A stretch of 27,981 bases of DNA from a virus. Of this stretch, positions 4,444 through 26,838 are shown one piece after another. The notes beneath the pieces were generated by a model that was given only the letters and a program-made list of their open reading frames with translations, was not told where the DNA came from and made no database searches. The position numbers and the translations under genes are program-made. The DNA lies in IMG/VR virus record IMGVR_UViG_3300031920_000531, positions 1-27,981 of that record; one strand, given 5' to 3'. Numbering within the stretch: position 1 is the first letter of the stretch; each line of letters begins with the position of its first letter.

Positions 4444-6291
4444 TTATATATCCCACACGATCCCCTTCTTTTCACCTGATTTCTTTGAGTTATCTGGTTT
4501 TTCACCCGATAATTGCCTTATTTTATCGCTAATACTATTAGGCCCTTGGGTTGAAGACGGTCCATCATAGGAAAATAGTATTTTAGAACCTTTACCAAAC
4601 ATACTATGGAAGAAATATCTAATCATATCCATAATATCAGCAGTTCCATCTTTCCCATGCTCTGGCTTGTTATCTATAGAATTTCCTTTTCCGTCTATTT
4701 TCCATTTATACACCTCAAACGAGTTAAATACACGCTCATTGTTCCTTGTTTTCAACACTTTAAAGTGTCTGTTATTGTTAGCATCAACAATTTTAGATTG
4801 AACACAGGTTATTCCGTCAATTACTGAGTCGATTCCCTTTTTAACACCAATAGCTGGTATTTTCCCATATATTGTATTTGTTTTCCTAAGCATTTTAATA
4901 TAGGCAGGGTAATTGGAGTCACAATACCACTGTTTTATGTTGTAATTGTTGGTATAGTCTTTACATTTTTCTATAATTTCAGGTATTTCCATACCAGCGG
5001 CTGATGTAATATCAATCAACCAAGACTTTCCACCCGATAGTTTGGCAAAAATACCCAACGAAGTCTCATCAGTGTTTCCCCAATCGGCCCCACCATAGAA
5101 TTCAATACCAAGGTCATGCATATATTTAACTAATTCAGACAAAGTTCTATCTTTCTCTTCTTCTCCAGATAAGTATTCATAAGCCTCATCGATAGTGATT
5201 CCATTTTCTTCCCCATCAAAACGTGGATATACAAGTCCTGACGAACTTGGTTTGTTACACAACAGTTGAGCCTCTCCCATTTCAGGAGATGTTTGTTTAA
5301 AGTTGTTATGGACCGCTGTTATTGGTTTGTATAGGTTTTCAACATTATCTTGAGGTCTATCTACTAGGTAATTTTTTATAATAGACAACATAGGATGTTC
5401 TGCAATTCCAGCATACGCTTCAAATGCTTCAAATTTACTTTTTGATTCATCGTTTAATTCTTCAAAATCTTCTGGTGATATATTCTTAAGTGGAAGAATT
5501 CTAGATATATATCTCAAAACCTTTGGCTCATTAACTCTAGCTTCTTCTTCAGAAATTCTTTCAGTCACATCTATGATATTCCATTTTAGAATCTCGCCAC
5601 CTGACCTTATAGTATCTTTTAGAGTTTTTTCCATCATACCACCAGCATACTTTCTAGTAGAAAGATATACAGTTAGCGGAAAGAAAGTTTCTCCCAAAGA
5701 GTTCTTATAAACACAGGGAATCATTTTAGCTTCCTCTAGTGCTCGTGGGTCTTGGACAACATCTACTTCGTCAATTGCTAAAAACGGAACATGTTCCGAG
5801 TTCATACCAGCAACAGTAGCAACAACAACTCTAGCAAAACAAAGCCACCCATTTTCATCTAACCAATCGGTTCTTGACTTACTTTCAGATATTTTTTGCC
5901 AACCATTTTCAACCAAATACATGTCTATCTTTCTAAAATGTCCACCAATATATTGAATCATCTTGTCGGACTGTGCTTTAATCGCCCCAGCTGTGGCTAG
6001 TTGTAGTCTAAAATGAACCATGAGAACAACAATCATAGCACTAGCGGCCAAAGTTTTGTAAGAATCCCTGCTCGCCAACATAGTTACTTGAGGCACATGT
6101 TTACTATCACCTGTTTTGTACAGTTCATAAATACGCCACATAGCATCAATTGGAGCATGTGTTGAATCTGGATAAACAGTTCCCATTGGAAACTTTATAT
6201 CCAAATAGGTGTAAATCCAATTTTGAAGTTCTTCTTTGCTATTTAGTCTCTGTAGTAGAAGTTTTGATTTTATTTCTTCTATGCCATCCAT
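4444..6291 (-). CDS. terL: Terminase large subunit (packaging ATPase/nuclease)
   Basis: 615 residues. TerL pumps DNA into the prohead and cuts it. N-terminal ATPase: Walker A-like ASRDSYKT (73-80), Walker B FLAIDE (170-175, D174 and catalytic E175) and a coupling-type segment LSTRKYAGG (210-218). C-terminal RNase H-like nuclease: first acidic strand YGGADWGNTDETS (D403), second YCDSN (D458), and third in DGTADIMDMIRYF (D549/D552). The length fits the family. The P-loop is unusual because the expected small Gly before Lys-Thr is Tyr (SYKT). The start overlaps the upstream coiled-coil gene by 13 bases. The C-terminal Ser/Lys tail is probably flexible. Confidence 0.9.
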   Translation of the reverse strand: MDGIEEIKSKLLLQRLNSKEELQNWIYTYLDIKFPMGTVYPDSTHAPIDAMWRIYELYKTGDSKHVPQVTMLASRDSYKTLAASAMIVVLMVHFRLQLATAGAIKAQSDKMIQYIGGHFRKIDMYLVENGWQKISESKSRTDWLDENGWLCFARVVVATVAGMNSEHVPFLAIDEVDVVQDPRALEEAKMIPCVYKNSLGETFFPLTVYLSTRKYAGGMMEKTLKDTIRSGGEILKWNIIDVTERISEEEARVNEPKVLRYISRILPLKNISPEDFEELNDESKSKFEAFEAYAGIAEHPMLSIIKNYLVDRPQDNVENLYKPITAVHNNFKQTSPEMGEAQLLCNKPSSSGLVYPRFDGEENGITIDEAYEYLSGEEEKDRTLSELVKYMHDLGIEFYGGADWGNTDETSLGIFAKLSGGKSWLIDITSAAGMEIPEIIEKCKDYTNNYNIKQWYCDSNYPAYIKMLRKTNTIYGKIPAIGVKKGIDSVIDGITCVQSKIVDANNNRHFKVLKTRNNERVFNSFEVYKWKIDGKGNSIDNKPEHGKDGTADIMDMIRYFFHSMFGKGSKILFSYDGPSSTQGPNSISDKIRQLSGEKPDNSKKSGEKKGIVWDI

Positions 6292-6636: not shown

Positions 6637-8424
6637 TTATGCCCTTATATTTGCTTCGTTTCTAAATTCGTCAGCATTATTTGTGGCTCTATTGAAGTCT
6701 TGCTCTTCTTTCCACGCTTGTATTTCTAATTGATTATCTCTTGGAGAACATATAATGCCACCAAGATTACCCATTACACTAGCTATAGAGCCGCTGTTTT
6801 CCAATGCTTGAGTCAATGCCTGCGTAGCATCGAAAATACCAAGGTCTTCAGGTAGTCCAAATTCCATATTTTCTATATCGTACACCATGTCAGTGTGTAA
6901 AAAATAATCTGTTATAATTTTCGTAACTTCTTCATGGTCATATCCTGCATTGTCTAAAAGTTTTCTTAGAGGTTCCATTAAACTCTCAATCAAAACTGTT
7001 TGCACTAAGTTGTAATCTCTATGACCTTCTTGGTATTCACTATCCAATTGCAACGCTAGATTTACTAAGGTTCTACAGCCACCTGGAGAACAGCCATGTT
7101 TTATAGCACTTCTTACAGCACATACAGCGTCTTCACATCTGTCATGTTTTTCTTTAAGTTCACCATTTGAAGCACCATATATTTTCAATTTAGCAATACC
7201 ATTAGTTAATTTACCCAACCTTTCTTCTAGGTCAAGTTTTTCAGCAATACTTGCAGCATTTGAAAGCTGTTGCCCTAGCTCTTCAGCTCTTTCTTCTATT
7301 AGAAGCTCTTCAGGATCACCAACTACTGTTGATCTAAACCTGTAAGATTCAAAGTTAGTCATCTCACTGCCTAAATCTGTAATCTTTGCTTTGGCAACTT
7401 GGTTTGTCATATCAAAAATCTTAGCACCTGTAAAGGCTGAAAGATCATATAAGAATTCTAGTCTTGAGTTTTTAATATTTGTCATTGGCGTAGATAGTGG
7501 TAATATATTTAAGCCACTAGGATTTGCAAAGTTATAGGCTAAATTAGTAATGACAGCTTCTGAAAACCCATGGGCTACAAGTACAACACTCATATAGTTT
7601 GAATCATTTTCATCAAACGCCTTAGCACCAATTTGATCTATAATAGGTAAAAAAGAGACTATATCATTAACCATGCCATCAAACAAAATAAATAACGGCT
7701 TGTCCATCTTACATCTTTGATTACCTTTGTCGTTTACGAATGCTGTATGAAACTTCCCTACAGACTCTTCTAGACCAATAGCAATTGGAAGTCCCTCTAT
7801 CAAGTCTACTTCATAGCCACCTGGTCCTGACAATTCTTGAAGAGTTACATGAGATGACTCTCCAAACCCTACTAAATCAAACGCTTCCATTACAGCATCT
7901 GCCATTTCTTCATCACCATTTGCAGATACCTGAGCAACTTTCTTCAACAGATGTTGGTTGTCTATATCTATGGTTATGGAATCTTTTTTTATTGCAGGAA
8001 TGAGTTCTTTTTTTATAATTTTATTCAAAACCCTAGTAGCTCTTTGTGGAGACTCTTTAGGGTTATTGCGACAAAAACTAAATAATGACTTCACTAGATG
8101 GGCTGAGATGATTGTAGTAGCTGTCGTACCATCACCAGCTTCAGAAGCGGTTCTTTGAGCTGCATCTCTAGTTTGCTCTATAATTAAGTGTTTATAAGGG
8201 TCAGCTGAACCTAATGACTTAAAAATAGTAACACCATCTTTCGTATTTTTGTTAGGAATTCCAGGGTAATCACTTTCAATCAGGGTGTTTTTACCGCCTG
8301 GGCCGTAGCTAGACCCTACAATTTCAGAAACTTCGTCCATCGTTTCAGATGTAATCTGTTGCAACCTATCAGGATCGGAACAGAACATTTTAGCTGGTGA
8401 TTTTGTTTTTTTTACCGTGGACAT
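6637..8424 (-). CDS. Phage-encoded GroEL-type (group I-like) chaperonin
   Basis: 595 residues, slightly longer than GroEL (548). Equatorial-domain ATP residues are kept: GPGGKN (41-46; GroEL GPKGRN), TKDG (61-64, D63 matching GroEL D52), GDGTTAT (97-103, D98 matching D87), VSANGDEE (166-173; GroEL ISANSDE) and RCEDAVCAVRSA (429-440, D432 matching D398). GIFDATQALTQAL (529-541) matches GroEL GIIDPTKVTRSAL. The apical part (about 200-370) is very divergent and the C terminus lacks the GGM tail, so substrate and co-chaperonin use may differ. No groES-like gene is seen in the window. It probably folds phage virion proteins. AAGGGAG precedes the ATG, and an extended -10 promoter lies 35 bases upstream. 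Confidence 0.92.
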   Translation of the reverse strand: MSTVKKTKSPAKMFCSDPDRLQQITSETMDEVSEIVGSSYGPGGKNTLIESDYPGIPNKNTKDGVTIFKSLGSADPYKHLIIEQTRDAAQRTASEAGDGTTATTIISAHLVKSLFSFCRNNPKESPQRATRVLNKIIKKELIPAIKKDSITIDIDNQHLLKKVAQVSANGDEEMADAVMEAFDLVGFGESSHVTLQELSGPGGYEVDLIEGLPIAIGLEESVGKFHTAFVNDKGNQRCKMDKPLFILFDGMVNDIVSFLPIIDQIGAKAFDENDSNYMSVVLVAHGFSEAVITNLAYNFANPSGLNILPLSTPMTNIKNSRLEFLYDLSAFTGAKIFDMTNQVAKAKITDLGSEMTNFESYRFRSTVVGDPEELLIEERAEELGQQLSNAASIAEKLDLEERLGKLTNGIAKLKIYGASNGELKEKHDRCEDAVCAVRSAIKHGCSPGGCRTLVNLALQLDSEYQEGHRDYNLVQTVLIESLMEPLRKLLDNAGYDHEEVTKIITDYFLHTDMVYDIENMEFGLPEDLGIFDATQALTQALENSGSIASVMGNLGGIICSPRDNQLEIQAWKEEQDFNRATNNADEFRNEANIRA

Positions 8425-11819: not shown

Positions 11820-13979
11820 TTAAGCACTTGTACTTGATTGGATTGGACTAAGTTCTAACTGTACAGGTATAAATAGAATGGCAGTTGCGAGCTTCGCTTC
11901 AACCTTAATTTCAGCAATAGGGCCATTTATATTAATACTAAGCCCTTTATACCCAAGAGGTGCATCATCGGAAGCTCCGATAACTTTAAGTTTTCTAAAC
12001 TCTTCCATTTTTTTAGCAATTTGACCAGCAATCGCTGCTGCACCAATGTCAGCAAGAGACTTACCAACAATAAATTTACCAAGAAAATCTGCCAACTGAA
12101 CAGATAACACATCTGACATATACATTGCTTGCAATGAGTTGTAAACAAAATTACTATCAAATCCGTAAGTTGTTTGGTCAACAATCCATTTACTACCTGC
12201 AGTTTCAGACTGTAAAGACATTAAACCTGCATCAATAGCACCTTCAGTGTCGTCAAAGTTTCCAGAATCATAACCACTAGGGTCTGTAAATCCAATAATA
12301 TTGGCAAATTTACCAGCTAGTGACTTATAAAAACCAGCAGATTGCATACCTGCAGCGATACAAGATGTATGCCATGGTAAGTAGTCTACAATCTCGTTTA
12401 CAGAGTTTGTTTGTGTACTTTTTTGAAAACACACTAATGATCTAAAAGATGCTAGTGTTTGGGAATGATTTTTGATATTTGCATAAGTATCCCACTTACT
12501 AAGCATTGCAAGTCTGTTCCTTTTTAATTTAACAGTTGACATAGCAAGTGCATGAGATTTTACAGCAAAATTAATAGCATCAATAGTATATGTTGAACCA
12601 CTGTCAGTGTCTCCATCAGCAATATCATCGATAGCATCTCTTGAAAATAAAGGTATTACAAAATTTACCTTAACACCTTCTGCAGGAGCTATAGCATTTA
12701 TAATGTCAGAAGATTTTGTTGCACCTCTAGTTCCACCTTCTAAAAATTGAGCCGTAGCCATTTCAGATGGTAACCCAAAAGAAACATCAAAAGACATATC
12801 AAGTGTAGAACTTTCTCCAAGCTTAAGAGCCATGTTATAGGCAGATTTTTTAATTCTACCAGATTCTACGATTCCTGTAGAACAAATTCCTACAGCAGTA
12901 ACTTCATCTAATCTTATAGGTGCTAGGTTAATTGAGCCTGCTTCTGAACTTGCAGAATAACCATCTTGAGTAGCTATAAATATGGCAAGATCGTTCATTG
13001 TAGTGTATAAGTTTAAATCAATATTTAAATTACCACCAGCACCACCTACAACAGTAGTTGTCAATATTCCACCAGAAATGTCAATTGTACCACTTGTTCC
13101 AACGTAACCTATTGTTAGGGCTATTTCACCTTTTACAATGTGGGATTCGTTTGTGTTTGTATCTTGTCTAACTATAGCAACTTGAATTTCAGGTTCTTGA
13201 GAAGAAACTGTCAAACCAACAACATGTCCTAAAAACGCTAATTCACCTATGGTTGAGTCAATAATTTCAAAAGACTTACCTTGACCTTTTCCATTAGCAT
13301 CAGTATCAACATCTGATTTAAAAATCAAAGCATCAGTTGTACCTTCTACACAAGAAAATCCAGCTGGAAGTTGTATATCAATTTCAGCAGCTAATTTTGT
13401 TATATCATCATGGTCACCCAAAGCAGAACTAAGATTTATTACAGTTGCAATATCGCCATTTCCACGGAATGAAAAAGATAGACCATCAAAAATAGAACCA
13501 TCACCAATTATAACGTCAGTACCTTGTATACTTGGCCCAACCTCATACTCAACATTGGTTATTTGGTATTTGTATTTGTTACCATCAATTCCGTATTTTT
13601 TGTCTGTCAAAGCACCATATACACCAGCTGGTGAAGCTACTATGTCTTTGGTAGCTTGTGTTCCTATATTTGTTTTTACGATATAAACTCTACCAGCAGA
13701 GCCTGTTATTCCAGTGTCATTGCTTGGAGATGTTAAAGCTGCCATAGCATCGACGATTGGACCACTTATATACTTGTTTCTAACTCTATCAAGTTGAGTA
13801 GGTGTGTAGAAGTTGTCTTTTAGCGTTTCTTGTGTAATATCTGCACCACCACTAGCTTCACCTATAATTACGATGTCGCCAGTATTTGTAATACCTACTG
13901 GTGTGGATTTTACTGTAGTTTCAACGTAAGCTCCAGGTACATTGGTGTTTACAAATGATGTTGTAAGTCTTTGAGCCAT
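11820..13979 (-). CDS. Tail sheath protein
   Basis: 719 residues. The sheath polymerises round the tube and contracts to drive it through the host envelope. The N terminus has the hallmark VPGAYVE (14-20) and TTVKSTPVGITNTGDIVIIGE, found in many myovirus sheath proteins. The C-terminal third (about 600-719) is the conserved sheath domain: a cysteine-poor alpha/beta part with DFLGKFIVGKSL, then the closing LSININGPIAEIKVEAK and AILFIPVQLELSP strands that interlock neighbouring subunits. The middle (about 120-370) is a variable, Thr/Ile/Gly-rich surface insertion. GGAAGGAG precedes the ATG. The tube gene follows 44 bases downstream. Confidence 0.88.
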   Translation of the reverse strand: MAQRLTTSFVNTNVPGAYVETTVKSTPVGITNTGDIVIIGEASGGADITQETLKDNFYTPTQLDRVRNKYISGPIVDAMAALTSPSNDTGITGSAGRVYIVKTNIGTQATKDIVASPAGVYGALTDKKYGIDGNKYKYQITNVEYEVGPSIQGTDVIIGDGSIFDGLSFSFRGNGDIATVINLSSALGDHDDITKLAAEIDIQLPAGFSCVEGTTDALIFKSDVDTDANGKGQGKSFEIIDSTIGELAFLGHVVGLTVSSQEPEIQVAIVRQDTNTNESHIVKGEIALTIGYVGTSGTIDISGGILTTTVVGGAGGNLNIDLNLYTTMNDLAIFIATQDGYSASSEAGSINLAPIRLDEVTAVGICSTGIVESGRIKKSAYNMALKLGESSTLDMSFDVSFGLPSEMATAQFLEGGTRGATKSSDIINAIAPAEGVKVNFVIPLFSRDAIDDIADGDTDSGSTYTIDAINFAVKSHALAMSTVKLKRNRLAMLSKWDTYANIKNHSQTLASFRSLVCFQKSTQTNSVNEIVDYLPWHTSCIAAGMQSAGFYKSLAGKFANIIGFTDPSGYDSGNFDDTEGAIDAGLMSLQSETAGSKWIVDQTTYGFDSNFVYNSLQAMYMSDVLSVQLADFLGKFIVGKSLADIGAAAIAGQIAKKMEEFRKLKVIGASDDAPLGYKGLSININGPIAEIKVEAKLATAILFIPVQLELSPIQSSTSA

Positions 13980-14292: not shown

Positions 14293-16173
14293 TTATCTAT
14301 TTTTAGAAGTCCCTCTCAATCTATTTCTACCTGCTTCTATTCTATCCATCAAGTTTTTGCCTCTTGGTGTGGCATTTTGTCTACCACCAACTACATTTTC
14401 CTGATAATTACCTCTAGTAGGTCTTTGGGTTTTAGGTTCCATCCTACCCATATCTCTTTTAAAACTATTCCTATCACCTGTTACTGGATTAGCCCCCATT
14501 CTGTTAGAAGATTGCTCTTGCCTATTTCTAATTTGACCTGTTGGGTTCAGTCCAGATCGGGAATCTTTTGCGTTTTGTATTCTAGCATTGCGATTTCTCG
14601 CTTTGTCTACATTTTTATTTCCAGAGGGAGTGTTTTTACCATCAAACTGATCACGGTTAAACTGTGTCTTACCTTCCCTTGTCATTGGCTTATTGTTTCC
14701 CTGCTCTTGTCTTGCTGGAGCTTGTTTTTGTCCCATTTCTTCTTTGTGTTTTGTGTGAAACTTTCCTGTTTTACCTGTTTTGGGGTTTTTCCAAGTAAAA
14801 TCTTTCTTACCTTCAGCTCTAGCTGTGTCAAAAGCTTGACCAAATGCTGATCTCTTTTTTGCTGCAGGTGCTTGTCCAACCTCTTTTGCTGCAATAGCAT
14901 TAGACTTAGCTGGAGTACTCATGTCGTTAAAACCTTTTTGAGGACCTTTTTGGCCTATATTCATATTATTAGGCTTTTTTTTTGACGATTGAGGAGCACT
15001 TTGCTTAGAAGTAGACCCTACCCCTTGATTAAAGCTTTCACTTGCCGCCCTTGAACTTCCTTTTGGAGCATTTTGCATTACAAATTGTCCAGCATCTTTA
15101 GATTGAGGACTATTTTGAGATTGTTGAGCAGTAAAACTAGCAGGAGGTGCCACTTTTTTAGAAGCTATATCTGTAAAAGATTTAGTTTCTGCTTTTTGAA
15201 ATCTCTTTAATTTATCAAAACTTCCTTCAGACTTTTTAACCATGTCTCCACATTTTTCTAAAGGTCTTTTGAAATTTTCCTTATCTTTATCAGACTTGTG
15301 AGGTTTATCATAGTCAACACTATTAGTTGCCTTCACTGTCTGGTCTGTGTTTTTTTCCATATTACTTTTAACATCATCACATTCGCAATCACACCCTTTG
15401 TCATCTTTGCATTTTTTGAGGTTTTTATCTTCAGATTTTAAAACACCCTCATCTCTCATTTTTGATCTGCGTTTTTTTGCAGCTTCTATAAATTTAGATT
15501 GATCACCTCTATCTGACTTCTTACTTCCAGGTTTTGTAGCATTGATCATGTTGTTTTGGTCTTTAGTCCACTCAACATCTTTCTTTTCTCTATCAAAAGA
15601 TGATAGTTTCTTATCTCCACTATCTTCTTTTCCTTCTTCACCTTTATTAACAGGTAATTTTGGAGCACCTGGCCATCCAATTTGAGATGCTATGGAGGGT
15701 TTGGATGTGGCAGGTTTTGCACTATTCATTCCTGCAGCAGCTCCAAAAGCTCCTTTTTTCATTGTTTTGTATGTTATATTGTATCCACAATCTTCTGATT
15801 TTTTAAAATCAAAATCATCTTCTTCTTCAGTTTCTTCTTCTTCAGTTTCTTCGTACCCTTCTTTATTGTATTTCTTTTTCTCTTTATCTTCTTCGCTTTC
15901 TTCTTCGTCTTCATCTGAATAAGAATCTTCACTATATTCTGAGTGATCCATGGATTCAGAATTCCCTGAACTCTCAGACCCATTTGCAGCCAAAGAAGCT
16001 GGACATTCAGCATCATCATTGTTAGGCTCTTCCCCTGCATCAATTTCATGAGCTGAATTTGAAGATTTCTTCAAATTTGCCACACCTAATTCGTGTTTTT
16101 GTAGACAGTCACGAAGTCTTTCAGCCATTATTTTAGCTACTTCTACTGGACTATATTTTTTATCATCAGACAT
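14293..16173 (-). CDS. Large low-complexity charge-polarised protein, possible internal virion protein
   Basis: 626 residues, mostly disordered by composition. Residues about 70-125 are highly acidic (Asp/Glu/Ser runs); 200-330 mixed with Lys-rich segments and a Cys cluster CKDDKGCDCECDD (255-267); 340-440 Ser/Gln/Pro-rich; 480-626 basic and Asn/Arg/Gln-rich (for example RNRNARIQN, RIEAGRNRLRG). One island, SAFGQAFDTARAEGKKDFTW (442-461), closely resembles a short Phe-Ala-Ala-x-Arg-x-x-G-x-x-x-Phe-x-Trp motif that I know from internal virion and scaffold-like proteins of tailed phages. A DNA-contacting or ejected internal protein is plausible but unproven. An AATCTTTA motif lies 25 bases upstream. 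Confidence 0.6.
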   Translation of the reverse strand: MSDDKKYSPVEVAKIMAERLRDCLQKHELGVANLKKSSNSAHEIDAGEEPNNDDAECPASLAANGSESSGNSESMDHSEYSEDSYSDEDEEESEEDKEKKKYNKEGYEETEEEETEEEDDFDFKKSEDCGYNITYKTMKKGAFGAAAGMNSAKPATSKPSIASQIGWPGAPKLPVNKGEEGKEDSGDKKLSSFDREKKDVEWTKDQNNMINATKPGSKKSDRGDQSKFIEAAKKRRSKMRDEGVLKSEDKNLKKCKDDKGCDCECDDVKSNMEKNTDQTVKATNSVDYDKPHKSDKDKENFKRPLEKCGDMVKKSEGSFDKLKRFQKAETKSFTDIASKKVAPPASFTAQQSQNSPQSKDAGQFVMQNAPKGSSRAASESFNQGVGSTSKQSAPQSSKKKPNNMNIGQKGPQKGFNDMSTPAKSNAIAAKEVGQAPAAKKRSAFGQAFDTARAEGKKDFTWKNPKTGKTGKFHTKHKEEMGQKQAPARQEQGNNKPMTREGKTQFNRDQFDGKNTPSGNKNVDKARNRNARIQNAKDSRSGLNPTGQIRNRQEQSSNRMGANPVTGDRNSFKRDMGRMEPKTQRPTRGNYQENVVGGRQNATPRGKNLMDRIEAGRNRLRGTSKNR

Positions 16174-16811: not shown

Positions 16812-17798
16812 CTAATCCTTAGCTACCCATGGTTCGCATTCTGTATCAATGATTTCAGGTATTTCACCACCATCTTTACCAATAATAACAAGACCTGCTC
16901 CGTTATCTGTGTCAAAATCTTTAAGAACTACAGATTCTAAAACTCTCTTTGGAGCTTTTAACCAAGTGTTCTCAACTTGACCTGTTATTGTAATGAAGCG
17001 ACTATATGCGTTTTCTCCAATATTTTGGAAATTTTCATTCCTTACCAAGTCACTAGTTTCTATAGTTGAAAGTTGAAAGTTTCTACTTTCCAATATACCT
17101 TCCCTGTATCTAAGTAGACCATACATCATAAAGGAGTATAGCCACAATAATGAATTTGGGTCTCCATGGGTGTGACAGCCTAAAACTACCCTTTCTTGAA
17201 AGGTGGCTATCTCTCTTCTTGCCATAAATGTTCTATATTGTGGTAAAATGCCAACTTCAATTGCCGTAACATCTGTTCCAGCAGCTATAAACAAGCTATG
17301 ATTGCTTTTGCTAACAATTACATACCCAGTTCCAGTTTTAGGGTCAATAATCACCATTCCAGCTTGTATGATGGACAAGTCAACCACTGCTGTGTCTACT
17401 ACGAACTCACCCTTGATTTGATCATACGATGTGTACCCAAAAGGTTCTACGATGTAGGGTATTGTTTTCCCAATATCACTAGCTTCATATGTTTCAACAG
17501 TTGCGGTTTGGTCTGCTAGTCTAGCTAAACTCTTATCTTCTGTGTTTGATCCTATAGAAATGGTTATGCAAGGAAATTTCTCAACATCCATCCTGTGAGG
17601 TAGAAGTACTGATATTTCATTATCTCTCAGCCATTTTTTGGCGTTTTCTATCTCTTTTTGTCCATATATAGACGAAAGCATGGGATCGGAGGTAAAGTCC
17701 GAAAGCACATCGTCGATGAGCCATTCATTCTCTCTTAAATCTTGCAATGTTAATTCGATGATTCTACGAAAAAAAACATCTCCCTGGAAAATAGCCAT
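16812..17798 (-). CDS. Tail terminator / neck-type structural protein (putative)
   Basis: 328 residues from the ATG at 17798 (MAIFQGDVFFRRIIELTLQ). A TTG five codons upstream opens a longer frame, but the stop of the 55-residue gene overlaps the ATG as TAATG and GGAG stands nine bases upstream. Two conserved-looking regions stand out: FPCITISIGSNTEDKSLARL (about residues 76-95) and, in the C-terminal half, VVLGCHTHGDPNSLLWLYSF followed by YGLLRYREGILESRNFQLST. This layout (a P-x-I-x-I-x-x-G-S-x-x-E-D strand and a G-x-H-x-x-G-D-P helix start) is what I know from phage neck and tail-completion proteins. Upstream and downstream genes are also neck-like. Confidence 0.6.
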   Translation of the reverse strand: MAIFQGDVFFRRIIELTLQDLRENEWLIDDVLSDFTSDPMLSSIYGQKEIENAKKWLRDNEISVLLPHRMDVEKFPCITISIGSNTEDKSLARLADQTATVETYEASDIGKTIPYIVEPFGYTSYDQIKGEFVVDTAVVDLSIIQAGMVIIDPKTGTGYVIVSKSNHSLFIAAGTDVTAIEVGILPQYRTFMARREIATFQERVVLGCHTHGDPNSLLWLYSFMMYGLLRYREGILESRNFQLSTIETSDLVRNENFQNIGENAYSRFITITGQVENTWLKAPKRVLESVVLKDFDTDNGAGLVIIGKDGGEIPEIIDTECEPWVAKD

Positions 17799-17965
17799 TA
17801 TAAAGGTCTCCAAATTAAACTTAAAATTACCAAAGTGGGCAATATTATTATAAACATACGTTCTTTTTTTTCAAAAAATTTACTACCATCTTTCCCAAAC
17901 AACATAAAAATATTGACAATTTGAAACAGGAAAAATAAAGCTATAACATTGTTATTTTGATTCAT
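17798..17965 (-). CDS. 55-residue two-helix membrane protein in the neck gene cluster
   Basis: A 55-codon gene too short for many gene finders. It begins MNQNNNVIALFFLFQIVNIF; residues 7-24 form one hydrophobic helix, GKDGSKFFEKKER (24-36) a short basic loop, and MFIIILPTLVILSLIW (37-52) a second helix, so a hairpin in the membrane with both ends on the same side is expected. The start overlaps the previous gene by 14 bases and the TAA overlaps the next ATG by one base (TAATG), strong signs of coupled translation. AGAAAGA is a weak Shine-Dalgarno. Size and topology fit a small holin-like or other membrane accessory protein, but no family is recognised and the location among structural genes is not typical of lysis genes. 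Confidence 0.7.
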   Translation of the reverse strand: MNQNNNVIALFFLFQIVNIFMLFGKDGSKFFEKKERMFIIILPTLVILSLIWRPL

Positions 17966-18725
17966 ATTTCTTTCTCAAAGCTGGTATCAATTCTCGTTGG
18001 TAAGTGTCTTGTACCCACTGAAAAGTATCTATCATGATGTTTTCAGGTGGTCTACCAGGGTGTACCCATGTTCCCTTAGACCTACTCTTGTCTGAGATAA
18101 CCCTAAAGGTCATTATACTTCTTTCTACCTTGCCTGTTTTTGCATTTTTGTTTTGGAAAACACTAACGCCTTGGACATTTTTAGAAAGAGATTTGCCACT
18201 TTTGCTGTTGTTTAAATCTTTAATGCTAAAGCTATGTATTTTGCCAATTCTAGGACTACCATTACTGTCCGTAGCTAAAGCTTTGTTTTTACTATATCTT
18301 ATACCTTTTGATCTGAAGAAAGTTTTCAACTCACCTACAAGATCGTCACCAGAAGTAGAAGTTTTTTTAGCAGTATTCTTTTTTTCAATAGGTATTATTC
18401 TATACTTGCTTCCATCCTTAGCAGTTTTACCGTTTTTAAGCAGTTCACTCATAAAACCGCCCTTTCTACCTTCTTCAATCCATAGAGCTTCTTCTCTTAT
18501 TCCTACTGTTATAAAATTCTCAGACTGTTGTTCTATATATATGTTTTCTTTATATTTGTTACCCAAACTATTTGGCAGTTGATCAGCGAGCTTTTGGGCG
18601 TGTTTAACAGCACCGTCCCCGAGAGATTTGGCTATCAACTTCATATCACTTTCAAATTGCTTCTTTACTTTTTCTTTTACTTCTTTCAAAATGTCAGATG
18701 TTTTTATGTCAAATGTCAACTTCAT
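17952..18725 (-). CDS. HK97-gp10-like head-tail joining protein (putative)
   Basis: 257 residues. N-terminal helix (residues 1-45) with SDMKLIAKSLGDGAVKHAQK, then strand ENFITVGIREEALWIEEGRK followed by GGFM, a Lys/Ser-rich middle (about 115-195) and the closing FRVISDKSRSKGTWVHPGRP, then PPENIMIDTFQWVQ and a C-terminal helix. The alternation of an N-terminal helix, an E-x-G-R-K-G turn and a final W-x-H-P-G-R-P-P region resembles the HK97 gp10 family of neck/tail-completion proteins. It is translated right after the cyclase-like protein (TAATG overlap at 18725) and just before a small membrane protein and the tail-terminator-like gene, which supports a neck role. Confidence 0.55.
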   Translation of the reverse strand: MKLTFDIKTSDILKEVKEKVKKQFESDMKLIAKSLGDGAVKHAQKLADQLPNSLGNKYKENIYIEQQSENFITVGIREEALWIEEGRKGGFMSELLKNGKTAKDGSKYRIIPIEKKNTAKKTSTSGDDLVGELKTFFRSKGIRYSKNKALATDSNGSPRIGKIHSFSIKDLNNSKSGKSLSKNVQGVSVFQNKNAKTGKVERSIMTFRVISDKSRSKGTWVHPGRPPENIMIDTFQWVQDTYQRELIPALRKKYESK

Positions 18726-20944
18726 TATTGTTTTACCGCTGGTGAAGATTTTGGTTTACGAATAGAAATAGGACTATTTCCTTTAGGTCCAATCGGGTCT
18801 CCAGCAGGGTCTTCAGCCAAACCTCTAGAACCATCTATCCACTGTGCTCTTCCAGTTTCATTGTCTATATCTTTAACCTTATATCCCTTCTGTGTTCCTT
18901 CAGGGTTGTGAGGTTTTGTTGTGTGTTTTGTTGTCTGTTTAGTAGCCAATTTGCTCTTTTCTAATTTTTTATCTTTTTTTTTTAAAAACTTAGAAAGCTT
19001 TTCTACATCTTCACTCTTGCTAATTCCACCTTTTTCTTCGTTTTTACCACGACAGCTGAACTTCTTCCTTGCAGAACATAGTGGAGAGTTTTTGTCATCA
19101 TTAGATCGGCAATCTTTACCAGAAGTTGTCATTTTTTGGTGAGATTTAGCACAAAAAGAGTTACTGCCCCCTCCAGAGCTTTTACCTTTGTTTTTCTTTT
19201 TTTCATTTATTTCAGCAGCACTTTTGGATTTATTCTTTTTCTTGCCACCTTTTTTCTTACTAGCACCTTGTTTTTGCTGTTCTAGTTTTTTTTTTACTTT
19301 TTCCTTCATTTCCTTAATACTCATATCTTCATCTTTCAGAAGATTCATTTTAGATATGATAGCATTTGTTTTTCTCAATAGTGAAACGAAATTTTCTGTT
19401 TTTTCTATTTCATCTTCTTCAGGATATTCTTCTTCCATACCGTCTTCAAGCATTTCTTCTTCTTCTTCTTCAGAATCTACAGCAAAATCGTCAGGATTCA
19501 TGTCATCTTCCATCTCTTCTTCTATGGCCTCACCTTCATCCATGACTTCTTCGCCCATGACTTCATCTTCTTCATTGAGCATGTCATCTTCCATACCCTC
19601 TTCCATACCCTCTTCCATGTTGCCATATCCGAGTTCACGAGCCATTTCAATCATAGCTTGAAGTGTATAAATAAGAGCATCGTATAGTTCTGGATTTTCT
19701 TGAGAAACCATTTCTAAATATTCTCTGTTTTCTTTGAAACTTTGAAGACTTTCAAATATGACGGTTTTTAAATCTTCAGTAGGATCACCTTCCCCTTCCA
19801 TACCGTCTTCAGGATACTCTTCTCCCATTTCTTCTTCAGGATACTCTTCTCCCATTTCTTCTTCCATTTCTTCTTCGGGGTATTCTTCTTCCATTTCCCC
19901 TTCCATACCCTCTTCAGGGTATTCCTCTTCCATACCCTCTTCTATACCTTCTTCCATACCCTCTTCAGGATATTCTTCTTCCATACCGTCTTCAAGCATT
20001 TCTTCTTCTCCCATTTCGCCAGCTATAGAGTCTGAAAGTTCGCTAGAATCTTCGTCTAAAACTTCATCATTATAATCTTCTTCATCACTATATTTTGAAT
20101 CACTTCTTTCTGCCATAACTTCTTCGTGCTCTACATCACCATCACCATCAAGGTCATCACTAGGTAGAATCTCACCATGATCTTCTTCAACATCTGGTTC
20201 ACCATCAAGGTCAATATCTTCATCCATAACACTATTCGATTCCGACATGTCGTCTATGGCATCTCCTTCTATTTCCTTTTCCCCTTCTATATTTTCCTCT
20301 TCTTCGTACTCCATATCTTCTTCAACATTTTCTTCAGGGTCTCCTTCTGGTAACATATCACCAGTAGCTCCTGAATCACCTTCTTCGGCTACCTGTTCTT
20401 GTTGAACTTCTTCTTCATCGCTTTGCATTTCGGTAGAATCATGAATAGCTTTATCTTCTGCATTGAGATGCTTTTCATGTTCTGGAATATCACCTTCGCT
20501 TTCACCTACAACTTCCTCTTGGTTTCCTTGCTCTTGATAACCACCAGATATAGCTTGCTGCATAGCCTGCTCCATCTCTGGAGAGTAATCTGTAATTTGA
20601 TTTTTACCATTCATCTTTGCGTATATCAATGCTTTTGCAGCATCAGATACCTTCTCACCAATACCAATGGAAATTGTAAATCCAGTTTTGTCTACATATT
20701 CGTCTTTTAAATTTTCCAAATCTGGAATGCTAGTTACAGGAACTTGAAATATAGCTTCATCGGAACCGCTACTAATAACCGACCCACCATTGAACTCAGC
20801 CCATTTGGAAAAAATCTGAACACCAGTATTGATTGCTTCTGATAGCTTAGATAGCTGGCTTGTGTCATCAGAAAGTACAGCGTTTCCTACACTTTCTCCC
20901 ACATTATCAGCATCAATTGCAACGTATGTCATTTGCTCTTTCAT
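18725..20944 (-). CDS. Cyclase/polymerase-like (GGDEF / mCpol type) domain fused to a very acidic repeat protein
   Basis: 739 residues. Residues 1-118 look like a Cas10-palm/GGDEF/mCpol domain: YVAIDADNVGES (7-18, metal-site Asp at D11/D13), a helix, then VISSGSDEAIF (56-66, the GGDEF-like SGSDE turn), SIGIGEK (92-98) and ALIYAKMNGKNQI (105-117), the usual A-L-x-x-A-K-x-x-G-x-N end. Residues about 135-515 are extremely acidic with M-E-E-E-Y-P-E-E repeats and an EF-hand-like DLDGDGDVEHEE (about 263-274); a short helical domain lies at about 388-440. Residues about 545-590 are Lys-rich, and a four-Cys segment (SFCAKS... to KKFSC, about 596-631) precedes a basic tail. Nucleotide synthesis is possible but unproven; a scaffold or core role is suggested by acidity and position. 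AAGGAA precedes the ATG. Confidence 0.75.
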   Translation of the reverse strand: MKEQMTYVAIDADNVGESVGNAVLSDDTSQLSKLSEAINTGVQIFSKWAEFNGGSVISSGSDEAIFQVPVTSIPDLENLKDEYVDKTGFTISIGIGEKVSDAAKALIYAKMNGKNQITDYSPEMEQAMQQAISGGYQEQGNQEEVVGESEGDIPEHEKHLNAEDKAIHDSTEMQSDEEEVQQEQVAEEGDSGATGDMLPEGDPEENVEEDMEYEEEENIEGEKEIEGDAIDDMSESNSVMDEDIDLDGEPDVEEDHGEILPSDDLDGDGDVEHEEVMAERSDSKYSDEEDYNDEVLDEDSSELSDSIAGEMGEEEMLEDGMEEEYPEEGMEEGIEEGMEEEYPEEGMEGEMEEEYPEEEMEEEMGEEYPEEEMGEEYPEDGMEGEGDPTEDLKTVIFESLQSFKENREYLEMVSQENPELYDALIYTLQAMIEMARELGYGNMEEGMEEGMEDDMLNEEDEVMGEEVMDEGEAIEEEMEDDMNPDDFAVDSEEEEEEMLEDGMEEEYPEEDEIEKTENFVSLLRKTNAIISKMNLLKDEDMSIKEMKEKVKKKLEQQKQGASKKKGGKKKNKSKSAAEINEKKKNKGKSSGGGSNSFCAKSHQKMTTSGKDCRSNDDKNSPLCSARKKFSCRGKNEEKGGISKSEDVEKLSKFLKKKDKKLEKSKLATKQTTKHTTKPHNPEGTQKGYKVKDIDNETGRAQWIDGSRGLAEDPAGDPIGPKGNSPISIRKPKSSPAVKQ
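19800..19990 (-). repeat. Degenerate tandem repeats coding M-E-E-E-Y-P-E-E units
   Basis: About seven imperfect units, mostly 24-27 bases, encode variants of MEEEYPEEG or MGEEYPEEE (residues about 320-380 of the 739-residue protein). A second, weaker block (MEEGMEEGM, EDGMEEEYPEED) lies at about 19415-19620. Unit number may vary between related phages through slippage or recombination. Confidence 0.8.
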
Positions 20945-20946
20945 GT

Positions 20947-21843
20947 TTATTCCTTATTTATATTTTTCAAAGTTTTCAGTAGCATTTCTATATTTTCAGA
21001 ATCCATACTTTTTGGGAACTTCATTTGGATATTCCTTTCTGTTTTCTGGATTTTTATGCTTTTGTTCCAATCATCACCATAGCAAATACAAAGTGTGAGC
21101 TTACTGCCACCTTTGTATAGATCAGAACCACAATCTGGGCAATCTATATTTTCTCTTTTCTCAATTTGAGCTTCTTCTATTTTTTCTTTTTGTTTTTTTA
21201 GGAAACCTTTTAGTTTTTCCGACTTACTCTCTTCTTCATGTTCTTCATGCTCTTCATGTTCTTCATGCTCTTCATGTTCTCTGTGAGCAGATAGAGCTTG
21301 CGAAAGTCTTTCTTTTACCAATATCTCAACAGCATCTCTTTGGGCTATTTTTTGATCAACAACCCTAGATATTAAAGAGTGAAGTTGGAGTCTTTCATCT
21401 ATAACAGATTGCAATTTGGATATATCAAATGTTTTTTTCTCTTCCTCTCTTGCATCTTTGAGACTATCAATGTCATACAATTCAAATGTTGTCATAATCA
21501 CAAGACCAACACCTGGAATCGATCTTTGTGTAAATTCGTTTATTTTCTTGCCTTTTGAATAGAAATACCCACTGAACGTATCTTGGTCTTTCTTTATAAT
21601 ATACATATAAGAGCCAATAGCAAAAGGTAGCTCTATTTCTTTGTTGTCTCCCTTTTCTAAGTGAGTCAAGTTTGAAATTAAAAAAGACATAACAGCTCTA
21701 GGTACTATTTTCAAACCAGTAGCCATCTCACTAGTACTGGTAGCGTTTTGCTGATACATCTTGTAAACATCAGATTTCTCCATAATTTCAAAGAAATCAT
21801 CGCCTAATATAGATTTTATAAGTTGATCTGGTTGTATTTTCAC
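20947..21843 (-). CDS. Protein with His-Glu-Glu repeats and C-terminal zinc ribbon
   Basis: 298 residues from a GTG start (AGGT upstream). N-terminal part (1-130) is mixed alpha/beta (FAIGSYMYIIKKDQDTFSGY, then IPGVGLVIMTTFELYD), residues 140-185 are helical, 188-204 consist of five H-E-E units, followed by a Lys-rich coil. The C terminus has a zinc-ribbon-like cluster C235-x2-C238 ... C252-x-C254 (DCPDCGSDLY, LCICYGDDW). Similar C-terminal Cys knuckles occur in several phage head or assembly proteins, so a virion assembly role is possible, but I cannot name the family. The stop is two bases before the ATG of the cyclase-like gene, so the two are translated together. Confidence 0.6.
   Translation of the reverse strand: MKIQPDQLIKSILGDDFFEIMEKSDVYKMYQQNATSTSEMATGLKIVPRAVMSFLISNLTHLEKGDNKEIELPFAIGSYMYIIKKDQDTFSGYFYSKGKKINEFTQRSIPGVGLVIMTTFELYDIDSLKDAREEEKKTFDISKLQSVIDERLQLHSLISRVVDQKIAQRDAVEILVKERLSQALSAHREHEEHEEHEEHEEHEEESKSEKLKGFLKKQKEKIEEAQIEKRENIDCPDCGSDLYKGGSKLTLCICYGDDWNKSIKIQKTERNIQMKFPKSMDSENIEMLLKTLKNINKE
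21235..21279 (-). repeat. Five tandem 9-base units coding His-Glu-Glu
   Basis: Alternating GAAGAGCAT and GAAGAACAT units on the minus strand give an 18-base higher-order repeat. It encodes the H-E-E run at residues about 189-204 of the 298-residue protein. The near-perfect units suggest recent expansion. Confidence 0.85.
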
Positions 21844-22250: not shown

Positions 22251-23156
22251 TTACCCTATATCATTCATGTCTACTTTTACTTTATAATCACCAATAGTTT
22301 CTACAGGTTTTTGAGGCTCTTCTATATCACGAACCTTTTGTTCTCTATCTTGATTTTTGTCAACATCATTGTTTTGATTATAATAAACGTATTCTCTTTG
22401 TACAACTGCTTGATAAGACATTCTCTGTGGACATCTTTCTCCTTTTTCATTTGTACCCTGTATAACTCTTACTTCATTGGGTATTTCTGTAATATACCAA
22501 TGAGCATTGTATTTATATCTCATGGAATATATGTTTCCCTTACCAGTTTCAGGATCAATTCCAGGGTTTCCCTTTCCATTAATCCATTTTATCTGACCGT
22601 CTTGTATCTTAAAGTGATAGCCACATTTATACTCTTTGTTCGCACTGTCTATCAAATACTGAACAGATGTAACAGGAAACTGTGCCCTATCTACTCCACC
22701 TGCATTATATTGCATTCTTTGGTAGTTTGAGACTAACACTTCCATATCTTTTATGAAAACTCTATCTCCAGGTGCTAGGTGAATTTCTTCTCCATCGGCC
22801 ACTGCATTTTTGTTGTAAAATCTAGGCACTAACATTCTAGCTGTCGAATAGTCAAAAACTCCACCCTCATTAGGTGTTTTTCTTTTTTGGTTAGAAACCA
22901 GTGTAGCTGTAAAACATCCAGCTTCTTTATATATCATACCGTTAGAAGATATAGTGTCATACTGACCGCTTCTTCTATAATCTCCCCTGTCTTTTAATCC
23001 AATTGGAGAAGGTATAGCAATATAATGAATAAATTCCACACCCCTACCTGTAACTAAATCGTCATCTTTCCCCAAATCCAAAGTGATTTGAAACAAGTCT
23101 TTAGGTGATTTAGGAAGGGTAGGTATTTGTAAACCCTTTTTTTCTTTATTTGCCAA
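22251..23156 (-). CDS. Probable virion structural protein (301 residues)
   Basis: 301 residues from a TTG start, supported by AGAGGT five bases upstream; no in-frame ATG lies near. The sequence looks like an ordered beta-rich structural protein: FIHYIAIPSPIGLKDRGDY, GMIYKEAGCFTATLVSN, DYSTARMLVPRFYN, PGDRVFIKDMEVLVSNYQRM and FPVTSVQYLID. Cysteines are few and no catalytic motif is visible. The C-terminal 45 residues are charged and probably flexible. Position in the neck/structural run and fold character suggest a neck or head-tail connector component; I do not recognise a named family. Confidence 0.6.
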   Translation of the reverse strand: MANKEKKGLQIPTLPKSPKDLFQITLDLGKDDDLVTGRGVEFIHYIAIPSPIGLKDRGDYRRSGQYDTISSNGMIYKEAGCFTATLVSNQKRKTPNEGGVFDYSTARMLVPRFYNKNAVADGEEIHLAPGDRVFIKDMEVLVSNYQRMQYNAGGVDRAQFPVTSVQYLIDSANKEYKCGYHFKIQDGQIKWINGKGNPGIDPETGKGNIYSMRYKYNAHWYITEIPNEVRVIQGTNEKGERCPQRMSYQAVVQREYVYYNQNNDVDKNQDREQKVRDIEEPQKPVETIGDYKVKVDMNDIG

Positions 23157-24452: not shown

Positions 24453-25298
24453 CTAATTGGAGCTGTTGTCTTTGAATTGTTCGGATAATTTGGGATTTGT
24501 TTCTATATTTGTTCTATTTTCATGATATTTTTTCACGTAATCATGGTTTTTATAGTCACCATGTTTTTCATTAAAAGCACTGTTTTTTATGTTCGATCCT
24601 TGGTTCCAAGAATATGACATTTTCGATTCATCTCCACCAAACTTGTCTTGAAGTCTGTTTGCTAGATGTGTTGCCACCTCTTTTTCATGATCTGGATTGT
24701 TTGCCATACTCTCTCCAATTTGGCTATTGTCCATATTTCTATATTGCCTATAAAGAGGATTCTCTTTTCCCATTCTACCTACAGTTTCTTTTATCGTATT
24801 CGGCATTAAACCGTATTTTCCCACTGCAGAGTCTCCATCATGTATTCCACCCTTCATCTGTCTGTGGTTTAAATTTCTACCACCAGATGATTCATTCATA
24901 GAAATTGCGTTTAAAAATGACCCTACCTTCTGGTCACGATAACTTCCAACATCAGCCCTAGCTGTCTCTTCAGGTTTTGGTGCCACTTCTTGCGAAACAT
25001 TGGCAGGACCCCTAGTTTTTGCTTGACTAACCACTTCTGAAGGAGAAGAGTCAGCATTTGACTCATTTCCTACATTACCTGCATAGTGAGCACCATGAAC
25101 TAAAGCTAGTATGGACATGCCATTCTTAAAAGCGGTCTTAAGATTTTTTTCAAGTTGATCAGTTGTAAGTTCTGGATATTCAGAAGCTCTGTTTATGATA
25201 AAATTTTTAAGAATTTCAGTAGCTTCACTTTTGGAAAGTGTTTTTTCCGATTTTTGAAAATTTCCTGATTCAATTTTTTCTAAAATATCTTTGTACAT
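24453..25298 (-). CDS. Virion lytic transglycosylase (SLT-like)
   Basis: 281 residues. Residues about 126-235 carry the lysozyme-like transglycosylase pattern: FLNAISMNESSGGRN (catalytic Glu probably E136), SAVGKYGLMPNTIKE (157-171, the G-x-x-Q/M-P-x-T segment) and SYSWNQGS (229-236, in place of A-Y-N-x-G). It would cut peptidoglycan during DNA entry. The N-terminal 75 residues are a helical domain with a mildly hydrophobic patch (GMSILALVHGAHYAG); 75-120 is a Ser/Pro/Glu linker, and the C terminus is polar. No signal peptide is seen, in line with a particle-borne rather than secreted lysis enzyme. Confidence 0.75.
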   Translation of the reverse strand: MYKDILEKIESGNFQKSEKTLSKSEATEILKNFIINRASEYPELTTDQLEKNLKTAFKNGMSILALVHGAHYAGNVGNESNADSSPSEVVSQAKTRGPANVSQEVAPKPEETARADVGSYRDQKVGSFLNAISMNESSGGRNLNHRQMKGGIHDGDSAVGKYGLMPNTIKETVGRMGKENPLYRQYRNMDNSQIGESMANNPDHEKEVATHLANRLQDKFGGDESKMSYSWNQGSNIKNSAFNEKHGDYKNHDYVKKYHENRTNIETNPKLSEQFKDNSSN

Positions 25299-26148: not shown

Positions 26149-26838
26149 CTAAGTATCTAAAGTCAGTAGTTCAAATTCTGTATTATTTTTTCTACTACCA
26201 TCTAGTTTTTTTGACAAACTTCTTCTATTTATATTGTTAGCTTTTGCACATTCTGTAATAGTTATCCAAACTTCTTTGGTTTTAACATTAACGACCCTCT
26301 TTTTAAGGGAAGGCAAGTGTGGTTTTTTCACATCTACATATCTCAAATCTGTATCATTTCCTGTATGACCATTTAACTTGCTTGATAGTGAAGATCGGTT
26401 TTTGCCAAGTTTTTTAGCACATTCTGTAACAGATACCCAAATTTCACCAGTTTCAATATCCATGACCTCTTTTCCATTTTTTATATTGATTTTGTGCCAG
26501 TCATTATTGGACTTTCTTCTTTTTTCTATAGTTTCCTTGCTTTGTTTGCCACTAGCACCACCACCTTCCATCATGTTGTAACCATTGGGGTGTAAGCTGT
26601 TGTGTTTATGTACTAATAACCACTCTTGATAATTTAACTCAGTTATACTATTAGCACCACCGATTTCTTCTATGGTGAATTTGTCAAATCCATACTTATT
26701 CATAGCGCGGTACATTGGTGTATTTGATTTTTTTGTAAAATAGTTTTTATGGCAAACCCATCTCCTGTTCAGTTTTTGAATTGTCTGCCCTATGTAAACT
26801 TTATTATTAATTGAATTTGTTATCTTATATATTATCAC
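26149..26838 (-). CDS. Free-standing GIY-YIG homing endonuclease with two NUMOD1-like repeats
   Basis: 229 residues from GTG. The start is fixed because IYKITNSINNKVYIGQT (residues 3-19) is the first strand of the GIY-YIG domain. R25/R26 and E72 (NYQEWLL) are the expected catalytic residues. NGYNMMEGG (85-93) and GKQSKETIEKRRKS (97-110) match the NUMOD3-type DNA-binding linker. Two tandem NUMOD1-like units follow: DIETGEIWVSVTECAKKLGK (127-146, to about 168) and NVKTKEVWITITECAKANNI (184-203, to about 225), each ending in a helix-turn-helix-like R-x-S-L-S-x-K-L. It is a selfish gene that cuts intron-less alleles. No Shine-Dalgarno is present; TAAAAT ends six bases before the GTG. Confidence 0.92.
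   Translation of the reverse strand: MIIYKITNSINNKVYIGQTIQKLNRRWVCHKNYFTKKSNTPMYRAMNKYGFDKFTIEEIGGANSITELNYQEWLLVHKHNSLHPNGYNMMEGGGASGKQSKETIEKRRKSNNDWHKINIKNGKEVMDIETGEIWVSVTECAKKLGKNRSSLSSKLNGHTGNDTDLRYVDVKKPHLPSLKKRVVNVKTKEVWITITECAKANNINRRSLSKKLDGSRKNNTEFELLTLDT

Follow-up and report, generated by a model that had tools for sequence, protein, structure and literature searches.

A minimal CRISPR polymerase domain in a near-core virion-operon gene of large contractile-tailed phages

Introduction

Why would a gene in the structural operon of a tailed phage begin with a domain that resembles the enzymes making cyclic nucleotides? The question arises at a locus in virus record IMGVR_UViG_3300031920_000531, of which we analysed a stretch of 27,981 nucleotides (the window). 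A preliminary description of this DNA had pointed to a palm-cyclase-like domain fused to a long acidic protein, had treated the fusion as one of its kind, and had left two readings side by side: a nucleotide-signal enzyme or a palm reused for structure.

As a bacterial enzyme, the minimal CRISPR polymerase (mCpol) is known for making a product that restrains a suicide effector, and for sensing phages that remove cyclic nucleotides. In Panoptes, effectors are held off by the mCpol product and are released once the product is removed (PMC12657218, PMC12657230). The synthase, OptS, forms dimers and tetramers (PMC12657218). In KpOptS the metal is held by D6 and D57, and no product is made when either is replaced by Asn (PMC12657218); S30 and N34 select adenine (PMC12657230). 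On the phage side, Iyer et al. 2017 proposed packaging and delivery for multidomain polyvalent proteins, whose GGDEF domains might interfere with host nucleotide responses (PMC5512222).

Results

The gene (18725-20944) is real and lies on the minus strand, a point that the preliminary description left unsaid. It runs from an ATG at 20944 to 18725, its stop shares one base with the start of the next gene, and its product of 739 amino acids has homologues at loci L002-L035 and L084-L095 and in Myxococcus phage Mx1. The protein is headed by an mCpol domain (residues 7-119; 20588-20926, minus strand, as for every part of the gene given below). The further features ascribed to it, an acidic stretch with repeats, a Lys-rich stretch and four cysteines, are all there. 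The acidic region (residues 126-515; 19400-20569) comprises 390 residues with 43% Asp plus Glu and a net charge of -158, and contains tandem repeats of the MEEEYPEE type. Residues from about 394 to 447 (19604-19765; ..IFESLQSFKENREYLEMVSQENPELYDALIYTLQAMIEMARELGYG) are predicted by AlphaFold2 to be helical, with a local pLDDT of about 71-88, and this region is kept in relatives, in Mx1, and at two loci (L173 and L176) that have no mCpol domain. The Lys-rich stretch (residues 516-600, 29% Lys plus Arg) carries a four-cysteine segment, C598-C631 (Cys 598, 612, 623 and 631; 19052-19153), which among the relatives inspected is confined to the window clade. Finally, residues 669-733 (18746-18940) form a conserved C-terminal motif domain (PxGTxxxG-x-KV..W....PIS-R), and a profile of it built on 12 relatives also matches genomes G001 and G002 and Mx1. 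The AlphaFold2 model of the C-terminal half of the protein is poor (pLDDT 54), and a PHROGs search with the mCpol protein gave no useful match. At five loci (L020, L023, L025, L027 and L084) a separate open reading frame of roughly 80-95 amino acids just after the mCpol gene matches the mCpol protein, and is probably a separate gene for its C-terminal domain.

The N-terminal domain contains, in the order originally reported, YVAIDADNVGES, VISSGSDEAIF, SIGIG and ALIYAKMNGKNQI. A profile search and a structure prediction had been proposed as checks, and both identify the palm cyclase specifically as mCpol. Pfam PF18182 (mCpol) matches residues 7-119 at 58.2 bits (cut-off 26.4; E=1.3e-15), covering positions 1-113 of a profile of 114, and NCBIfam NF033576 (mCpol) scores 50.9 bits (cut-off 40). 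Single-sequence phmmer comparisons of the window protein with OptS/mCpol crystal chains gave E=2.6e-9 and 4.1e-9. The AlphaFold2 model of the domain, with 21 natural sequences as input, has a mean pLDDT of 94.7. Its best Foldseek matches in the PDB are all Panoptes OptS/mCpol, with 9mnr_A (KpOptS) at TM 0.83/0.89 and 1.5 A over 116 columns. GGDEF diguanylate cyclases and the Cas10 palm have the palm fold and the motif order in common with the window domain, but their likeness to it is weaker in both sequence and structure than that of OptS/mCpol; in Foldseek they rank well below (E from 3e-6, with GGDEF chains at TM about 0.5-0.7). We rejected a Cas10 identity, with Cas10-Cmr2_palm2 at 16.4 bits against a cut-off of 27 and no further Cas10 domains (HD, Zn), and likewise a GGDEF diguanylate cyclase, with GGDEF absent from the Pfam matches of the protein and a search of the window record with PF00990 empty. 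A tblastn search with KpOptS matched no phage record. Judged by its sequence and its modelled fold, the N-terminus of the window protein is a true minimal CRISPR polymerase domain.

The neighbours of the mCpol gene are virion genes, in agreement with the structural-operon setting first proposed. On the same minus strand, a virion structural protein (phrog_1004; 22251-23156, by PHROGs and synteny) and a 298-residue virion-operon protein (20947-21843, kept in synteny) are encoded upstream. The next gene downstream (17952-18725), a conserved partner of the mCpol gene, encodes a 257-residue, phrog_16819-like product that by similarity and synteny is a probable neck/tail completion protein. It is followed by a probable tail terminator (SP10_terminator-like; 16812-17813; Pfam 1.4e-5, just below the cut-off) and the tail sheath (11820-13979; phrog_279, E=6.8e-14). 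The large terminase subunit (4444-6291) and the portal protein (2186-3997) are encoded on this strand as well. A phage-encoded GroEL-like chaperonin lies beside the terminase (6637-8424; phrog_5725, E=2e-81), and a gene for a GIY-YIG homing endonuclease is found inside the virion operon (26149-26838); homing endonuclease genes recur near the neck genes of several relatives.

Most of the viral contigs examined retain the gene order virion structural protein, 298-residue protein, mCpol, 257-residue neck protein, terminator and sheath. It is kept in outline in Mx1, where the mCpol homologue, annotated only as hypothetical, lies directly upstream of the neck gene. We began the count of its spread independently, from the neck gene, and found 68 viral loci, 58 of them with at least 1.5 kb of upstream DNA. 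In 55 of these 58 the gene immediately upstream of the neck gene encodes an mCpol. The helical region is kept in two of the three loci without mCpol (L173 and L176, the third being L177). From these counts and these two loci we concluded that the helical part is constant and that mCpol is a nearly constant N-terminal module. In the place of mCpol, L173 (3547-4986) and L176 (3408-4790) encode repeats rich in CxxC (e.g., DCQYC), and the helical region comes after them. Two other loci have the neck gene (L026, 2574-3347; L027, 7856-8611) and the mCpol gene called on opposite strands, possibly through a local inversion. A one-off fusion is rejected by the 85 phage domain sequences that could be aligned (52 at 90% identity). 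Far from being a unique fusion, the mCpol gene belongs to the near-core genes of the virion operon across a broad group of large phages with contractile tails.

Alignment to KpOptS places window D11 and D62 at D6 and D57, and S35 and N39 at S30 and N34; both S35 and N39 are kept throughout the window clade. Because these four residues align with the catalytic and base-selecting residues of KpOptS, the window clade has the complete residue set. Two metal-type Asp and a further key Asp had been singled out in the preliminary description. D11 and D62 correspond to the KpOptS catalytic pair, whereas a catalytic role is not established for D13, which is almost invariant among phage mCpols. The view that activity was not excluded stands, in that the catalytic residues appear intact in the window clade. 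The window motif is GSDE; the canonical GGDE is found in most phage relatives and is nearly universal among D-type members.

To describe conservation across the family, the 85 aligned domain sequences were reduced to 52 distinct ones (less than 90% identical; mean identity 36%). The D11-D13-D62 triad is kept in 35 of the 52, and 33 of those 35 also have E63 and K110. In 13 others D11 is replaced by Asn with D13, D62, E63 and K110 kept, and the remaining four (Mx1, L195, L167 and L175) have a degenerate site. Sixteen D-type proteins (mean identity 43%, minimum 25%) share 11 invariant columns out of 115: D11, D13, G16, D62, E63, G94, G96, A105, L106, K110 and G113. That D11, D13, D62, E63 and K110 all fall among these 11 has p=3e-6, a value that is optimistic given shared descent. 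In 12 N-type members D13, D62, E63 and K110 are invariant and position 11 is invariantly Asn. Only two or three events are needed on the trees for the D11 changes; the larger tree, in which one row labelled Cas10 (L050) carries a meaningless translation in the wrong orientation, was used only for this count, and the smaller tree was preferred. That the phage mCpols form one clade is unproven by the tree (p-AU 0.49). The choice initially posed between a signal enzyme and a reused palm is best answered by a split within the family, given these three site types and three loci without the domain. We read this as the record of a domain that would ancestrally have been a live enzyme and was kept live in most lineages; one old branch with Asn for Asp probably binds without turnover, and a few copies decayed.

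In T4, phiKZ and SPN3US, head proteases recognise short motifs and cleave after Glu (PMC5694885). KSE recurs in the proteins described here. As a non-circular test we used the gene that immediately precedes the one for the major capsid protein (the scaffold position), chosen by position, in 12 phages. KSE occurs there 41 times against 5.2 expected (8-fold), and other orders of the same letters occur 1-5 times. A hydrophobic residue stands two positions before the Lys in 46 of 53 K[SA]E sites in this gene, against a background of 23%. In mCpol proteins, beyond the domain, hydrophobic-x-K-[SA]-E was observed 36 times against 6 in shuffles and 0-4 for scrambled versions. In genome G001 the motif is found 18 times on the structural side (3.7 expected) and 9 times in the rest (6.7 expected). 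The scrambled-order controls and the independent gene chosen by position led us to reject the possibility that KSE is a by-product of a composition rich in Lys, Ser and Glu. Because the motif is enriched before the major capsid gene and the T4, phiKZ and SPN3US proteases cut after Glu, hydrophobic-x-K-[SA]-E is likely the head-protease site in these phages.

The K[SA]E motif is found in 21 of the 31 mCpol proteins examined, the window protein included; about a third have none, among them those at L020, L008, L028, L029, L089 and L091. Two putative sites lie in the window protein (minus strand). Motif statistics point to GIS-KSE (residues 643-645; 19010-19018), and alignment and motif statistics to EIE-KTE (residues 515-517; 19394-19402), whose KTE aligns with KSE in L003, L005, L006 and L007. 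Other proteins encoded on the minus strand of the window have candidate sites: a 626-residue protein has four hydrophobic-x-K[SA]E sites (14293-16173), and a protein identified by similarity as SLT-like has two hydrophobic-x-KSE sites within 26 residues of its N-terminus (24453-25298). The SLT-like protein is probably another processed head protein. Its two sites resemble the cleaved propeptide of a head-packaged lysin.

Discussion

What might such a protein do? We tentatively favour, at a little short of an even chance, a head- or neck-associated polyvalent protein that delivers a usually live cyclic-dinucleotide synthase and so disturbs host nucleotide-based immunity. The mCpol domain would probably work as a dimer, like OptS, and the long acidic linker would join it to a helical region that is conserved and to tail domains that vary. 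In this model the protein would most likely enter the prohead, be cut by the head-maturation protease at the hydrophobic-x-K-[SA]-E sites, and pass into the new host together with its DNA cargo, a route proposed for polyvalent proteins. For presence in the particle, the protease-site-like motifs are support of an indirect kind. The delivered domain would then make a cyclic dinucleotide from ATP, for which 2',3'-c-di-AMP is our first guess from the KpOptS alignment. This product could disturb host immunity, for example if it kept a Panoptes-like effector inactive or competed with the host's own signals. The data show the domain and its fold, the conserved residues, the synteny and the enriched motif; for the further steps our confidence is greatest for ATP binding and falls, in order, through cyclic dinucleotide synthesis by D-type members, prohead entry, cutting at K[SA]E and delivery to interference with immunity. 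The GSDE of the window protein in place of GGDE counts against this explanation, as do the position of the mCpol gene among neck and tail-completion genes, away from the capsid gene, and the third or so of mCpol proteins without the K[SA]E motif. In addition, because 13 Asn-11 and four degenerate copies exist and three loci lack the domain (two of which keep the helical region), the basic role of the protein does not need catalysis.

The main rival is structural reuse, in which the palm would serve a neck or prohead protein as an oligomerisation module and would have lost signalling, with nucleotide or metal perhaps only a structural ligand. The dimers and tetramers of OptS (PMC12657218) and the fixed place in the virion operon agree with such a role, and the Asn-11 clade and the degenerate site of Mx1 show that the domain persists without catalysis. 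Because N-type and decayed members exist, structural reuse must, by their sequences, hold for at least part of the family. However, a pure scaffold would not need catalytic residues that are among the most conserved D-type columns, nor a nearly universal GGDE, and some members do without the domain; we regard structural reuse as unlikely.

Another explanation is a nucleotide sponge or sensor, in which the domain would hold ATP or a cyclic nucleotide without converting it and would so soak up host immune signals. For the N clade, in which D13, D62, E63 and K110 are kept and D11 is Asn, binding alone is the simplest reading. The window clade keeps D11 and S35/N39, which a sponge would not need, and known Acb sponges have folds other than mCpol, making this an improbable explanation. 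Equally improbable is a late-made, unpackaged protein that acts in the producing cell, against superinfection or against Panoptes-like effectors freed by phage nucleotide depletion: a phage enzyme would restore the product whose removal frees those effectors (PMC12657218, PMC12657230), but the late virion operon, the acidic and helical regions of virion type to which the domain is fused, and the protease-site motifs fit a particle better.

The delivered-synthase reading invites comparison with Panoptes. The window domain and OptS/mCpol (PF18182; KpOptS 9MNR and 9PD0; mCpol 9NWN) have the same family, fold and catalytic Asp pair, and the window clade shares the base-selecting Ser and Asn. OptS is a stand-alone bacterial enzyme of roughly 14 kDa whose two-gene operon also encodes a 2TM-beta effector, whereas the window mCpol heads a 739-residue phage protein in a virion operon with no effector gene seen nearby; many of the phage homologues have GGDE, and some have Asn for Asp. 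A stand-alone Panoptes operon inside a phage was not seen: the neighbours are virion genes, with no S-2TM-beta, CARF-2TM or similar effector. A search of 10 phage records with PF18153 gave no match, and no positive control matched either. Nor do we class the gene as bacterial anti-phage defence; the window is a virus record and the gene is part of the virion operon of a tailed phage. We hold it possible, though doubtful, that the capsids of this whole group of large tailed phages deliver an active synthase, as a virion-borne counterpart of Panoptes that supplies or forges a second messenger at infection, and that in one branch the change from Asp to Asn has made it a nucleotide binder (sponge).

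The near-core mCpol protein is also consistent with the polyvalent-protein idea of Iyer et al. (PMC5512222). Polyvalent proteins are coded with virion genes, as is the mCpol gene, and GGDEF, ART, NUDIX and GNAT domains are described there. Passages of that paper retrieved by search name GGDEF, and not mCpol, in polyvalent proteins, and here one domain is fixed N-terminally in a near-core gene. A single enzymatic domain is recognised in the window protein; GNAT-like domains are added in relatives at L085, L088 (weak) and L089. The Mx1 operon encodes one GNAT/ART-PolyVal/NUDIX protein and one GNAT/kinase protein with hydrophobic-x-K[SA]E sites. Internal proteins and Alt of T4, and ejection proteins of SPN3US and phiKZ (PMC5694885), resemble what we describe in their short protease motifs ending in Glu and in acidic or variable internal proteins. 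The putative motif here differs from theirs in being hydrophobic-x-K-[SA]-E, as deduced from sequence.

Other palm cyclases were seen in related genomes. Mx1 encodes a second one, a GGDEF protein between the prohead protease and major capsid genes (L110, 17173-17904). In three Mx1-like genomes (G809, G810 and G811; L113, L114 and L115) GGDEF lies near the C-terminal end of an open frame of 1237-1367 amino acids, apparently a relative of the Mx1 protease region. An open frame of roughly 2000 amino acids in record 3300009503_000022 (L094/L112) carries both mCpol and GGDEF, together with stretches that by eye look primase-, sigma- and LigD-phosphoesterase-like. A 60-residue segment from the N-terminus of the major capsid protein recurs in another open reading frame (G809:C1:17158-17319), and a similar segment (AGNFNAxPSTLxxGSAxQ) in the Mx1 protease suggests a shared sorting or propeptide signal.

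As far as the literature searched goes, with most subscription papers outside its scope, no phage or virion mCpol has been described, nor mCpol as a near-core virion-operon gene. Direct tests are feasible in a cultured phage group, with Mx1 isolated, though its copy is degenerate, and natural active-like and Asp-to-Asn versions are on hand for comparison. The proposed maturation-protease motif would allow other packaged proteins of these phages to be listed from sequence. A near-core phage mCpol with mostly intact catalytic residues suggests that phages may carry their own second-messenger synthase.
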